Shown one piece after another: positions 13,729 to 53,119 of a stretch of DNA of 64,000 nt. Numbering within the stretch: the first letter of the stretch is position 1; each line of letters begins with the position of its first letter. The position numbers and the translations under genes were made by a program. The notes below the pieces were generated by a model. It saw only the letters and a program-made list of their open reading frames with translations. It was not told the origin of the DNA and made no database searches. Source of the stretch: Paracoccaceae bacterium. GTDB lineage: Bacteria > Pseudomonadota > Alphaproteobacteria > Rhodobacterales > Rhodobacteraceae. Where the stretch lies: contig JAQWNW010000038.1 of the NCBI GenBank assembly GCA_029246285.1, positions 1 through 64,000 of the forward strand, in the 5' to 3' direction.

Positions 13729-13789
13729 GGTAATCTCTTGTTAACACTCGGTAACACGTTATTTTAGATGTACGGGGGAAGGATATTTT

Positions 13790-14206
13790 ATGTCAGAAAA
13801 ATTCATGACAATACGAGAAATGTGTGAAGAATTTCAGGTAACCGCGAGAACCTTAAGATTTTATGAAGCAAAAGAATTAATATCCCCGATCAGAGTTGGA
13901 CAAACTAGACAATACACCCATAAGGACAGAGGTAGATTAAAATTAATTCTTCAGGGTAAGAGATTTGGATTTGCACTTGAAGAAATTCGTCAACTTTTAG
14001 ATCTCTATAATTTAGGCGACCAGCAATATACCCAATTTGTCAAAACTTATGAAAAGGCAAAAGAAAGATTAAATGTTATGATCTCCCAACGAGATGAACT
14101 TACAGAAGCGATTGAAGATTTAAGAAGGCATCTTGATTTAGGCAAAAAGGAACTAGATAGAATGCAGAAGACCCGAATGAAAAACAATGTAGAGATAATG
14201 CTATGA
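13790..14206 (+). CDS. MerR-family transcriptional regulator (second of a tandem pair)
   Basis: A 138-residue MerR protein with helix-turn-helix [20 protein letters not shown] (residues 11-30), second helix pair [18 protein letters not shown], and a long C-terminal coiled coil ending at the stop. A GGGGGAAGG sequence lies upstream of the ATG. Its last four bases overlap the start of the downstream acyl-CoA dehydrogenase (ATGA), so it is co-transcribed with the beta-oxidation genes it likely controls. It lacks metal-sensing cysteines. It is paralogous to the preceding gene, and the motif [22 protein letters not shown] is nearly shared. Confidence 0.87.
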
Positions 14207-15981: not shown

Positions 15982-16068
15982 GCAATTTAACTTTCGTAAA
16001 ACCAAAATATAAGCTAACCACAAGGAGAAAAGAAACAAATAATTTTTTCTTTGTATCGGAGGAGCCAA

Positions 16069-17223
16069 ATGACATTTTCAAATTTGAAATCTGACTGGAT
16101 GAGTGATGAACATAAAATGATTTCAGAAATGACTGCTAATTTTATAAATACTGAGTGGGCTCCAAAGTTTGAAAAATGGAGAAAGCAAGGAGAGATGGAT
16201 AGAAGCACCTGGAATGAAGCAGGTGAACTAGGACTGCTATGCCCTTCTATCCCAGAACAATATGGTGGCGCTGGAGGTGATTTTGGCCACGAAGCTGCCA
16301 TTTTGATTGAAGGTAGCAAAGCAAATTTAGCAAGTTGGGGTCACGCTATACATTCAGGAATTGTTGCACATTATATCCTTCATTGCGGAACAGAAGAACA
16401 AAAACAACGCTGGTTGCCAAAAATGGTCACAGGAGAACTTGTTGGAGCACTAGCCATGACAGAGCCTTCTGGTGGTTCAGATCTTCAAGCGATCAAAACT
16501 CGAGCAATTAAAGATGGAAATTCGTATAGGCTAACTGGTCAAAAAACCTTTATAACAAATGGGCAACATGCAAACCTTATTATCGTTGCTGCAAAAACAA
16601 ATCCTTCAGAAAAAGCACGTGGAACATCATTAGTTGTTGTAGAAACCGATGGAGCAGATGGTTTCACTCGTGGTAGAAATTTAGAAAAAATTGGAGCTAA
16701 AGCCGCAGATACATCAGAACTTTTTTTTGACAACGTAGAAATACCCCCAGAAAATATTCTGGGAGTAGATGAAGGTCAGGGGTTTTATCAAATGATGCAA
16801 CAGTTGCCTCAAGAACGGCTTATTATCGGGTGTGGGGCAGTTGGAGCCATGGAAGGCGCTGTTCAAAGGACAATAGATTACTGCAAAGAAAGAGAAGCAT
16901 TTGGAAAACCTATAATACATTTCCAAAATACAAAATTTAAATTGGCCGAATGCAAAACACGCACAGTTGTGGCTAGGAGTTTTTTAGATACTTGTATAGC
17001 TGCTCACCTAAAAAATGAATTATCTGTAGAAACTGCTGCAATGTGCAAATATTGGCTTACTGACGAGCAAAATCAAGTAATTGATGACTGTTTGCAGCTA
17101 CATGGTGGATATGGATTTATGCAAGAATATGCGATAGCAGAGATGTGGACCGATGCTAGGGTTCAACGCATTTATGGTGGTACGAATGAAATAATGAAAG
17201 AATTGATTTCACGTAGCCTTTGA
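16069..17223 (+). CDS. Acyl-CoA dehydrogenase, LCAD/IVD-like active site
   Basis: A 384-residue enzyme starting at the ATG at 16069, with CGGAGGAG just upstream. An in-frame TTG at 16051 is discarded. The usual C-terminal catalytic YEGT is [16 protein letters not shown] here, so the base is missing at that site. Instead Glu249 in LPQERLIIG stands where long-chain and isovaleryl-CoA dehydrogenases place theirs. [15 protein letters not shown] is the FAD segment. It therefore probably acts on long or branched acyl-CoA and complements the preceding FadE-type enzyme. The 87-base gap before it contains a purine-rich stretch. The next gene follows after ten bases. Confidence 0.88.
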
Positions 17224-43727: not shown

Positions 43728-43760
43728 GTCAAAAAAATGTAAAAAACGACTCTTTTTGAC
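43728..43760 (+). terminator. Weak candidate terminator after nusB
   Basis: GTCAAAAA and TTTTTGAC form an 8-bp perfect dyad with a 17-base loop. The stem is mostly A-T, and the arm itself provides the T-run. It is a possible transcript end for nrdR-rib-nusB, low confidence because of the large loop. Confidence 0.3.
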
Positions 43761-43815
43761 GAAAAATTACAACAAAAAATCTTTAATCTATCCATTTTAA
43801 GCAAAGAGGTGTTCG

Positions 43816-45027
43816 TTGCGTATTATTGTTTCATTTGCTGCCTTAATGCTTTCAGTTATTTTTTTACAATTAAGCACTGGTGGCCTTGGCCCTTTAGATG
43901 CTCTTTCAGGAGTGAAGATGGGCTTCAATTCATCGGAAATAGGACTTTTAGGTTCAGCACATTTTTTAGGATTTTTTATTGGATGTTGGTGGGCACCTAG
44001 ACTTATGGGCGCAATCGGTCATAGCCGAGGCTTTGCAACATTTACAGCATTAGGATTAGTTGGCATTATAGGTCATACTTTATCACATGACGCTACAATC
44101 TGGATAACATTAAGAGTTTTTTCAGGACTATCTGTAGCGGGATGCTATTCAATTATTGAGGCATGGCTTCAGGCTAAGATCGAAAACCAAAATAGAGGCA
44201 AATCACTTGGAGCCTATAGATTAGTAGACATGGGCGCATCTCTTTGTGGTCAACTTTTAATAAGTATATTAGAACCGGCACACTATATATCGTATAACAT
44301 CTTAGCTTTGATTTGCACTGCAGCTTTGCTTCCGCTTACTTTAACACGCTTAAAGCAACCAGAACTCCCTTTAACGCCCAAGCTAAGGCCAATTGCTGCT
44401 TACAAACTATCTCCATTAGCTATCATCGCGGCTATAGTAGCAGGCTTGACAGGCGCATCATTCAGAATGATTGGGCCCATTTATGGATTGCAAGTTGGCT
44501 TGGAGATAAATCAGATAGCATTGTTTTTGGCTGCCTTTGTTTTGGGCGGTGCATTAGCTCAGTATCCAGTCGGTAGGTTAGCAGATGCATTTGACCGAAG
44601 ATGGGTTTTAATCTTCCTTTCCAGTGCAGCTATCTGTTCTTCAGTGCTGACAATAATTATCAGTAATCAAGGCACGACAGCTGTATTTTTTGCCGCTTTT
44701 GCTTTCGGCTTTATAACTTTCCCAATTTACTCCGTTGCGTCCGCTCACGCAAATGATTTTGCAACACCCAATCAAAGTGCTGAATTAAGTGCAGCCTTGA
44801 TTTTTTTCTTTGCTACCGGAGCAATTGGCAGTCCAGTTTTGTCAGCAATTTTAGTGGAAATTTACGGAGCCAACGCTCTATTTGTTTTTATTGCATCGGC
44901 TCATGTTATATTAGTAATAATTAGCCTGACAAGAATGAGTGTAAGACCAACTAATGAGGTTAAAACAAGCTATAGATATACTCCAAGAACTAGTTTTGGT
45001 ATTGCTAAATTAATTCGAAAAAAGTGA
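43816..45027 (+). CDS. MFS transporter (YcaD-like)
   Basis: A 403-residue major facilitator with twelve hydrophobic segments. The motif-A like segment is LLGSAHFLGFFIGCWWAPRLMGAIGHSRGF, and LGGALAQYPVGRLADAFDRR is its second-half repeat, typical of the YcaD/UhpC-like sugar or organic-acid branch. The frame starts with TTG at 43816, preceded by AGAGGTG, and there is no earlier ATG in frame. The substrate is unknown. It lies between nusB and metG on the same strand, likely its own unit. Confidence 0.85.
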   Translation: MRIIVSFAALMLSVIFLQLSTGGLGPLDALSGVKMGFNSSEIGLLGSAHFLGFFIGCWWAPRLMGAIGHSRGFATFTALGLVGIIGHTLSHDATIWITLRVFSGLSVAGCYSIIEAWLQAKIENQNRGKSLGAYRLVDMGASLCGQLLISILEPAHYISYNILALICTAALLPLTLTRLKQPELPLTPKLRPIAAYKLSPLAIIAAIVAGLTGASFRMIGPIYGLQVGLEINQIALFLAAFVLGGALAQYPVGRLADAFDRRWVLIFLSSAAICSSVLTIIISNQGTTAVFFAAFAFGFITFPIYSVASAHANDFATPNQSAELSAALIFFFATGAIGSPVLSAILVEIYGANALFVFIASAHVILVIISLTRMSVRPTNEVKTSYRYTPRTSFGIAKLIRKK

Positions 45028-50117: not shown

Positions 50118-50660
50118 ATGATCCATCCCAATCATTTTCCAATATCATGGATACCTATTCCAAATGGGAATAATATAAAGAAATTGGGTATTTCCTACTG
50201 TCCTGGGAAACAACCGATTGAGTCAACCAATAAGTCTAATCTTCAGAATGACTTAAAAAGTATTTCTAATCAGGAAATTAAATGCATCGTGAGTTTATTA
50301 ACATCTGCTGAACTGTCTGTGTTAAAAATAAAAGACTTTAAAAAAAATATCAAAATGCAAGGCTTTCAACATTATACAGAAGAAATAGAAGATCTTGGCG
50401 TTCCATCACAAATCCAAATGAATTCATTCAAAAAATTAATTAAAAATATAATTTCAGAGATTAGAAGAGATAACAATGTTTTGATACATTGTAATGCTGG
50501 CATGGGTAGGTCAGGACTAGTTGCCGGAGTCATATTGCGAGAAATGACTGAACTTCTTGAGCCAATAGAATACGTCCGTAAATTTCGCAAGGGTGCGATT
50601 GAAACACAAATACAGGAGGAATTCATAAAGTTTTGGTATATTAACAACGATTTAACGTAA
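50118..50660 (+). CDS. KAP/CDKN3-like dual-specificity phosphatase
   Basis: A 180-residue cysteine phosphatase. The P-loop is HCNAGMGRSG, with nucleophile Cys125 and Arg131, and Asp92 in EEIEDLGVPS is the likely general acid. The C-terminal RKGAIETQIQEEFIKFW aligns with the GAIQT segment of the human cyclin-dependent kinase phosphatase KAP. Bacterial members exist but their substrates are not established. It is co-transcribed with the BVMO gene and overlaps the 3' end of convergent arsJ by nine bases. A role in arsenic or phosphoester metabolism (for example on a 3-phosphoglycerate-like compound) is speculation. Confidence 0.82.
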   Translation: MIHPNHFPISWIPIPNGNNIKKLGISYCPGKQPIESTNKSNLQNDLKSISNQEIKCIVSLLTSAELSVLKIKDFKKNIKMQGFQHYTEEIEDLGVPSQIQMNSFKKLIKNIISEIRRDNNVLIHCNAGMGRSGLVAGVILREMTELLEPIEYVRKFRKGAIETQIQEEFIKFWYINNDLT

Positions 50661-51890
50661 GTTTCTTGTTAATAACCAGCTTGCAAATAACATCATCGAA
50701 GCAGTTAATAGGCAGAATACTATCCCGCCAACCTGATATGTAAGCCCCGAAAGTAAGGTTCCCAAGAATCTCCCAAGGGCGTTAGCGGTATAGTAAAACC
50801 CCACATCAAGAGTAACTCTATTATCGTCTGTAAAAGCCAGAATAAGATATGAATGCAAACTAGAAATTATTGCAAATATTGCCCCAAAAATAAGTAACCC
50901 TATGATAAGAGTTATGCTGGCTATCAGGTTTTGCTGATTAAAAACTAACAAACATACTGCTAAAAAGACTGGCACAACCGTCAACCTTTGCATCCATACT
51001 TTTAATATATCTAATATTTTGCTGCCATTAACACCCTCCAATCCTAAAAGCTTAGGAGTATTAGCTTGAACTATTCCATATAATATTATCCAGATAGCAA
51101 GAAAGCCACCAACTATAAAGAAAGCAAAACCGTTATTGGTAACTAGATTGTTAGACACAGTTGAATATAAATATAATGGAACTCCCACAACAAACCAAAC
51201 GTCCCTGGCACCAAACAAAAACAACCTAGCCAACGAAAGGTAATTTACATCATTATTTTTTGTAAAAATTTTTCTGAATAATATTGATTTGTTACCTTTT
51301 GGTAAATTATTGGGCATACTCAAGAAAATTATAAGGAGGATTGAAATAAGGGCGGCTGCCATAATTAACAATGACGTGCCAAATCCAAAAACCCAAAGTA
51401 AAAGAGCTCCGACAAAAAAACCAAGCCCTTTAATACTATTTTTTGAACCAGTTAGAAAAGACACCCATTTTAATAAATCTTTTTCAACATCTGATGTAAG
51501 TATTTTAACAGCAGATTTCGCACTCATTTTTGTGAAATCTTTAGCAATACCAGACAATCCTTGAACTAACATTACAAAAACTACCGAAATTGCAATACTC
51601 CAAGCTAGATTAAGCTGTGATAGCGCTAAAAGGGAAAATATTTGTAAAATTAAACCCGTATAAAGTGTAGATTTTAAGCCAAATCTTGCGGCGAACCATC
51701 CAGCAGTCAAATTTGCGATTGCCCCGGCAATTTCATATATCAAGAAAAGATATGCAAGTTGTAAGGGCGAATAACCCAAAACATGAAAATGCAACAGGAT
51801 TAGCATCCTCAGCGCGCCATCCGTGAGCATGAATACCCAGTACGCTAACGTTACAAATAAATATGCTGTGCGAGCATTTTGTTGCGTCAA
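50652..51890 (-). CDS. arsJ: Organoarsenical exporter ArsJ (MFS)
   Basis: A 412-residue major facilitator with twelve hydrophobic segments. ArsJ expels 1-arseno-3-phosphoglycerate, which then breaks down to arsenate outside the cell. The family signature segments [21 protein letters not shown] (in part) and [21 protein letters not shown] are present. There is no in-frame ATG. The start is TTG at 51890, overlapping the GAPDH stop (TTGA, four bases), with GGTGGG about ten bases upstream. The overlap makes translational coupling with the GAPDH gene likely. No ArsR is adjacent. Confidence 0.9.
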
Positions 51891-52885
51891 ATTTTATTTC
51901 CCACCATTTCAACAATATCCACTAATCGATGGGTATAACCAACCTCATTATCATACCAAGCATAAATCTTAACCTGGGTATCATTAATTACCATTGTGGA
52001 TTGGGCGTCAATTATACAAGATCGGGGGTCATTTACGTAATCACTCGAAACTAAGGGTTTAGTTTCATATCCAAGAATATTTTTTAAGTTACCTTCTGCA
52101 GCTGCTTTAAATAAGCTATTTACCACTTCAACGTCAGTGGCCTGCTCTAACTCAAATACACAATCAGTAAGTGAAGCGTTCAAGAGCGGTACTCTTACAG
52201 CATGACCATTTAATTTTCCATTAAGTTCTGGATATATCAATGTGATCGCCGTTGCCGATCCGGTAGAAGTTGGAATTAATGAGTTCAAAGCAGACCTTGC
52301 GCGTCTTAAATCTTTCGCAGGACGATCAACAATTGTCTGAGTATTGGTAACATCATGAATAGTTGTTATGCTGCCATGCTTTATTCCCAAGTTCTCATGA
52401 AGCACTTTTACAACTGGGGCAATGCAATTTGTCGTACAGCTTGCAGCTGTGACGATATCATATTCCTTAGCCCTGTATAGATCGTGATTAATCCCATATA
52501 CAATATTTATCGCTTCTGGATCTTTTACAGGAGCCGAAACAATCACTTTTTTTACCCCCTTTTCAAAATAAGCTCTTAATTTTTCAGATGTCTTAAATGC
52601 TCCTGTGCAATCTATAACAACATCAATTCCTTCAAATGGTAAATCAACAATTTTTTCTTTTTGGTGTACGATGATTTCATGACCATCCACTATGATTGAA
52701 TTGTTGTTAACGTTAATATTGGCTTTCCAGCGACCATGCACTGAGTCAAATTCCAAAAGGTGAGCATGTATTTCCGCATCTCCGGTAATATCATTAATCC
52801 AAGAGATTTTTATTCCACGATCGAGAAGAACTCTTAACGCTAATTTTCCAATTCTGCCAAATCCATTGATTGCGTAGCTAGTTAT
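51887..52885 (-). CDS. ArsJ-associated glyceraldehyde-3-phosphate dehydrogenase, apparent ATA start
   Basis: Forms 1-arseno-3-phosphoglycerate from glyceraldehyde-3-phosphate and arsenate, the substrate of ArsJ. The catalytic Cys150 is in [12 protein letters not shown], and the conserved [10 protein letters not shown] segment is intact. An internal TTG at 52756 would give only 289 residues and delete the NAD Rossmann motif [14 protein letters not shown]. Reading upstream in frame there is no ATG, GTG or TTG before the TAA stop. ATA at 52883-52885, with AGGAG four bases upstream, gives [12 protein letters not shown] and 332 residues, exactly the family length. So the start codon is ATA, or the codon has mutated. 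It precedes arsJ in one operon. Confidence 0.82.
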
Positions 52886-53119
52886 TTCTCTCCTCTTTAT
52901 TTATCTTTGCGTCTTTATTTAAAACTCATCAACCTACTCAAGTACACCCTGGTAAGTATCAGTAAAAGATAATTATTACAGAATTACTACAAATGTAATG
53001 TTTCAAATGTAACAATAAAAATTGGGGTTCAAAATATTTCCTAATTGAAGATGGGTACATATTATAAGTTTTTTAAATGAAACTAATAAATGGAGGGCTT
53101 ACTCCCATAAATTAAATCA
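52886..53119. promoter_or_regulatory. Regulatory gap upstream of gapdh-arsJ with direct repeat
   Basis: A 234-base gap between the arsenic genes and the 3' end of selO. CAAATGTAA occurs twice, at 52990 and 53004, spaced by 14 bases, about 105-120 bases upstream of the GAPDH start. This could be a binding site for an ArsR or PhoB-like factor, which is inference. The rest is AT-rich and no small ORF is convincing. Confidence 0.35.

Follow-up and report, generated by a model that had tools for sequence, protein, structure and literature searches.

Described AUA starts and the var operon

Weak ATA start codons are already known in other bacteria, and the closest precedents for the gene described here are citZ of Staphylococcus aureus and rsbW of Listeria monocytogenes. 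In S. aureus, the genes infC, ccpN and citZ have AUA starts that in poor medium give about 10% of the output of AUG; for ccpN the figure rises to as much as 30% when the medium is rich, and the AUA of citZ is found in strains of one lineage (PMC13009471). In L. monocytogenes, a change of the rsbW start from ATG to ATA has been described in selected mutants as well as in two natural strains, with translation that was reduced but measurable (PMC13068326). Autoregulation of initiation factor IF3 has been linked to the non-canonical start of its gene infC, which is ATC in Streptomyces and ATT in E. coli, and sigR of Streptomyces starts with GTC (PMC5472188).

For the function of the gene, the closest described system is the var operon of Vibrio cholerae, arsR-varG-varH-arsJ, in which the glyceraldehyde-3-phosphate dehydrogenase (GAPDH) VarG makes 1-arseno-3-phosphoglycerate and in which lacking ArsJ is the more damaging defect (PMC9601151). 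VarH, topologically very similar to human KAP, is involved in the breakdown of 1-arseno-3-phosphoglycerate and is called rather exclusive to Vibrionaceae in the same report (PMC9601151).

The 64,000-nucleotide window (the whole stretch of DNA that was analysed), which comes from a marine bacterium, carries an ArsJ-associated GAPDH gene that appears to start with ATA behind a strong Shine-Dalgarno sequence, as do citZ, ccpN and infC of S. aureus, of which citZ is likewise a metabolic gene; whereas the S. aureus starts are backed by retapamulin ribosome profiling and reporters, the ATA of this alphaproteobacterial arsenic operon is known from sequence alone (PMC13009471). The start change is the same G-to-A change as in Listeria rsbW, where, however, the mutants came from applied selection and the comparison took in about 60,000 genomes, while the GAPDH ATA was read in the DNA of one genome (PMC13068326). 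With infC and Streptomyces sigR the gene shares a start codon of the kind that IF3 discriminates against, but the infC and sigR starts serve regulation, whereas the ATA of GAPDH is without conservation (PMC5472188). As in the V. cholerae var operon, the GAPDH gene stands with arsJ and a KAP-like phosphatase gene lies beside arsJ; in contrast to varH, which is inside the operon, the phosphatase gene is convergent with arsJ, and the genes identified on either side here are selO and the phosphatase gene, neither of them the arsR of the var operon (PMC9601151).

The GAPDH gene and its initiation signals

The GAPDH gene is encoded on the minus strand (51887..52885) and comprises 332 codons and a stop when read from the ATA at 52883..52885. 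The 332-residue protein scored 550.1 bits against NCBIfam NF033735 (ArsJ-associated GAPDH, cut-off 450) and matched the Gp_dh_N and Gp_dh_C domains, and its orthologues in two congeners are 95% and 77% identical. It carries the N-terminal NAD-binding motif INGFGRIGK, and the Cys of its motif SCTTNC, which we take to be the catalytic Cys motif of the GAPDH active site, is residue 150.

Read on the minus strand, the 5' region is TAA(52903-52901) ATA AAG AGG AGA GAA ATA(52885-52883) ACT AGC TAC GCA ATC AAT GGA TTT GGC AGA ATT GGA AAA. The in-frame TAA (52901..52903, minus strand) closes the frame upstream, and no ATG, GTG or TTG occurs in the frame ahead of TTG 52756; as would be expected of a genuine AUA start, the frame thus offers no canonical codon from which the conserved protein could be made. 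A second in-frame ATA at 52900-52898 lies upstream of the Shine-Dalgarno sequence AGGAG (52890..52894, minus strand), which ends 4 nt before the ATA at 52885. The initial annotation had proposed this ATA as the start of a 332-residue protein, with AGGAG four bases upstream and without an earlier canonical codon, and both the sequence and the family profile agree with that proposal.

The duplex energy of the GAPDH Shine-Dalgarno sequence with the 16S tail (-8.4 kcal/mol) ranked sixth strongest of 44 compared genes, five of the 43 others being stronger; the value for GAPDH of the congener G002 was -7.2 kcal/mol, and those for the genes at 13745-14206 and 16018-17223 were -8.6 and -9.5 kcal/mol. 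A strong or extended Shine-Dalgarno sequence, as found here, is expected of a genuine AUA start, although not strictly, since that of infC in the same genome reaches only -4.9 kcal/mol. The spacing of 4 nt in GAPDH is shorter than the 7 nt of infC. Both the Shine-Dalgarno sequence and the ATA are unpaired in the predicted fold of the GAPDH start region, and no folding beyond that of shuffled sequences was seen around the start. Promoter-like sites near the start were no commoner than in shuffles, and no terminator was found near it.

Apparent ATA start codons in infC

The infC gene of the same genome, coding for IF3 (minus strand, L122, G000:C1:31174-31671), also has an apparent ATA start, with the Shine-Dalgarno sequence AAGGA 7 nt upstream. 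The region reads AAG GAA TCA ACA ATA GCC CGA AGA CCT. Eight codons ahead of the ATA the frame is closed by a stop, and between this stop and the conserved N-terminus canonical codons are absent. The presumed infC start was taken as the Shine-Dalgarno-linked codon nearest the conserved N-terminus, a codon lying 12-18 codons before the GPR motif and having the Shine-Dalgarno sequence 5-10 nt away, a rule chosen after viewing the loci. Under this rule ATA is the presumed infC start in all three genomes of the genus, including both congeners (L153, L154). The best 30 family loci (L123-L152; 57 matching genomes among 61) gave 28 ATA and 2 ATC, and the best 30 class loci (L156-L185; 56 matching genomes among 58), one of which, L156, belongs to the window's own family, gave 24 ATA and 6 ATC, with no ATG, GTG or TTG in either set. 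When the first Shine-Dalgarno-linked codon was taken instead, the counts were 26 ATA and 4 ATC in the family, and 22 ATA, 5 ATC, 1 CTG, 1 GTG and 1 ATT in the class.

No canonical in-frame codon stands upstream of the infC ATA or ATC in 12 of the 30 family loci and 21 of the 30 class loci; in the other 18 and 9 an in-frame ATG, GTG or TTG is present upstream, and a longer start is possible there. The G+C content of the family infC loci is 55-74%, and ATA is a codon that is otherwise rare at such G+C. Among the loci examined, infC thus seems as a rule to start with ATA. Because infC of the same genome and most of the family and class loci appear to start with ATA, AUA initiation is probably usable in this organism. 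The view of the initial annotation that AUA initiation is very rare in bacteria therefore needs qualifying for infC here and in most of the family and class loci examined. Among the publications listed in our literature search, none reported an ATA start in alphaproteobacterial infC; work by Babic in 1997, which reportedly dealt with IF3 of Rhodobacter sphaeroides, may well hold one. A 2017 study by Hecht is said to have dealt with all 64 start codons.

The start column in related genomes

Across the best 80 of 589 matches to GAPDH, a set that includes the congener G002 itself (L036), the start column held ATG in 71 loci, GTG in 9 and no other codon. Our statement on the start column rests on this set; a smaller family set that shares genomes with it (L007-L035, 19 of 29 loci framed) gave 17 ATG, 1 GTG and 1 TTG. 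Both congeners have ATG, in the contexts GAA ATG ACA ACC TAC GCA ATC AAT (G002) and GCA ATG ACA ACT TAT GCG (G001). Conservation of ATA, or its confirmation in several genomes of the lineage, would mark a genuine AUA start; it was sought in both congeners and in the related loci examined and was not found. Because all 80 related loci have ATG or GTG and both congeners ATG, the ATA is private and not conserved. By this comparison it occupies the ancestral start position and differs there by a G-to-A change of the third base that is private to this genome.

The initial annotation had named ATG in close relatives as the sign of a sequence error, and ATG is indeed what both congeners carry. The nearest of them, G002, shares only about 90-93% DNA identity with this genome and is probably a different species, so its ATG cannot tell a real private mutation from an error.

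Two further differences from G002 were observed. The intergenic stretch between selO and GAPDH (window 52886-53119, 234 nt) aligns poorly with its counterpart in G002, which exceeds it by about 160 nt, while the DNA flanking it on either side is 90-93% identical. A segment of about 1.24 kb at window 43737-44975 is absent at the same place in G002; it holds most of an open reading frame (ORF) at 43816-45027 that by eye is MFS transporter-like. A screen of viral contigs with GAPDH peptide patterns revealed no matching stretch.

Integrity of the gene and of the assembly

The comparison of GAPDH with its G002 orthologue gave a dN of 0.019, a dS of 0.316 and a dN/dS of 0.059 (0.146 for arsJ). Polarised with G001, the changes in GAPDH amount to 3 amino-acid and 17 silent changes on the branch of this genome and to 6 and 15 on that of G002. 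Among the 189 columns that are nearly invariant in the other 80 proteins, the GAPDH of the window departs at 8; 7 of these departures recur in G002, and the one at residue 105 is found in this genome alone. Neither dN/dS, nor the branch changes, nor the invariant columns gave any sign of decay in GAPDH, and a recent start loss would leave none.

As a control, 44 ORFs of at least 80 aa with more than 70% identity to G002 were compared (window 10816-64001). The canonical start is kept in 43 of them, GAPDH being the sole exception; 41 have a canonical codon in common with G002 among the first 16 of the open frame, and in two (13745-14206 and 16018-17223) a conserved ATG was recognised on reading. 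No frameshift or early stop was seen in the 44 shared ORFs, a comparison that does not measure substitution errors. No ORF of G002 is split over two ORFs of the window, and long unaligned C-termini occur in three ORFs only, all at the end of a G002 contig, of a retrieved stretch or of the window. The window holds no ambiguous base. The source genome, probably metagenomic, is a draft of 87 contigs that is 92% complete.

The arsJ gene and the neighbouring phosphatase

The arsJ gene (50652..51890, minus strand; NF033734, 495 bits), coding for an MFS arsenical efflux transporter, adjoins GAPDH as expected of an ArsJ-associated GAPDH. Its TTG start overlaps the GAPDH stop (TTGA), as the initial annotation had noted, and since both G001 and G002 have the same overlap, this TTG is not peculiar to this genome.

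On the plus strand, a dual-specificity-type phosphatase gene of KAP/CDKN3-like type (50118..50660) is convergent with arsJ and overlaps its 3' end by 9 nt. Its product matched PF22785 (45 bits) and then PF05706, CDKN3 (43 bits), and aligned with human CDKN3 (1fpz) over residues 8-168 with an E of 3.8e-7, several other phosphatases of known structure matching slightly better by sequence. A KAP-like phosphatase gene thus lies beside GAPDH-arsJ, as in a var-type locus, and it adjoins arsJ, convergent with it, in all three genomes of the genus. Of the 80 related loci, inspected with flanks reaching at most 3 kb, 79 contained arsJ and only one, that of G002, the phosphatase gene. Two of 13 plasmid matches of the phosphatase were inspected: on a Methylophaga thalassica plasmid, a distant homologue (24.9% identity) stands directly before GAPDH-arsJ in an arsenic gene cluster, and the other match lies beside arsenic genes with no arsJ within 4 kb. 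By analogy with V. cholerae, the phosphatase is a possible VarH-like partner. A VarH-like step outside Vibrionaceae is plausible because a KAP-like phosphatase gene adjoins arsJ in the genus and a homologue precedes GAPDH-arsJ on the Methylophaga plasmid.

Interpretation of the ATA start

The explanation that we favour, with somewhat better than even confidence, is a real AUA start at the ancestral position of the family, reached by a private change from ATG to ATA and giving intact GAPDH at a reduced, IF3-sensitive rate. A private G-to-A transition would have turned the ancestral ATG of GAPDH into ATA; the initiator tRNA would read AUA poorly, aided by the strong, unstructured Shine-Dalgarno sequence, and intact GAPDH would be made at a fraction of the ancestral rate, in an IF3-sensitive manner. 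If the base is right, reduced and IF3-sensitive GAPDH output is probably to be expected because of the analogy with the AUA starts of S. aureus and Listeria. The arsJ start lies within the GAPDH stop, so that less ArsJ may be made too, provided that arsJ is translationally coupled to GAPDH. Here we infer that organisms in nature carry this base and use AUA, and likewise the extent of the reduction, the coupling and any advantage.

It is possible, but clearly less probable, that the ATA is an artefact, the true base being G and the A stemming from faulty sequencing or consensus calling, or from a minor strain variant chosen in a metagenomic assembly. The restriction of ATA to this genome beside the ATG of both congeners agrees with such an origin, as do the draft state of the assembly with its 87 contigs and a further private difference, at the nearly invariant residue 105 of GAPDH. 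On the other hand, only one of the 44 starts is affected, and the codons beside the start (ACT AGC here, ACA ACC in G002) differ between the two genomes in an ordinary-looking way; the lack of ambiguous bases in the window and of frameshifts in the shared ORFs points in the same direction, although neither gauges substitution errors.

We consider it quite unlikely that the start codon was lost on the way to a pseudogene, in an operon that is no longer usefully translated and whose decay has not yet begun. Although the sole canonical start was removed, and a private change fits a recent loss, the 332-codon frame is intact with its low dN/dS, the arsJ frame is intact too, and this branch gained fewer amino-acid changes than its sister did, although a very recent loss would look the same. 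Translation from elsewhere in the frame is highly improbable. The internal TTG 52756 is the first canonical codon and would be the choice of a start-codon-restricted gene finder, but, as the initial annotation had held, it is unsuitable: the NAD-binding profile match from it begins only at position 44 of 101, and its Shine-Dalgarno sequence is weak (-0.3 kcal/mol). ATA 52900 lies upstream of the Shine-Dalgarno sequence, ATC 52870 falls inside the conserved AINGFGRIG stretch, 19 nt after that sequence, and the position of the start does not vary among the relatives examined.

The suggestion of the initial annotation that low GAPDH output could be selected fares less well, since ATA is absent from every relative examined and a change confined to a single genome does not speak for selection; what it retains is plausibility only. 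In its fullest form, which we regard as unlikely, the ATA would be fixed in the species and adaptive, placing the arsenate GAPDH, and ArsJ through the overlap, under an infC-like, IF3-dependent AUA control; in sea water poor in arsenate, less glyceraldehyde-3-phosphate would then be drained off, and the system would still be there for use.

Should the favoured AUA start of GAPDH be real, the short list of known AUA starts would gain a lineage-specific case from a resistance operon of an alphaproteobacterium. Genes with AUA starts are truncated by gene finders limited to ATG, GTG and TTG. If the apparent retention of ATA or ATC in infC holds, these genes would offer a conserved natural system in which to test AUA initiation and feedback by IF3, which may outweigh the GAPDH case.
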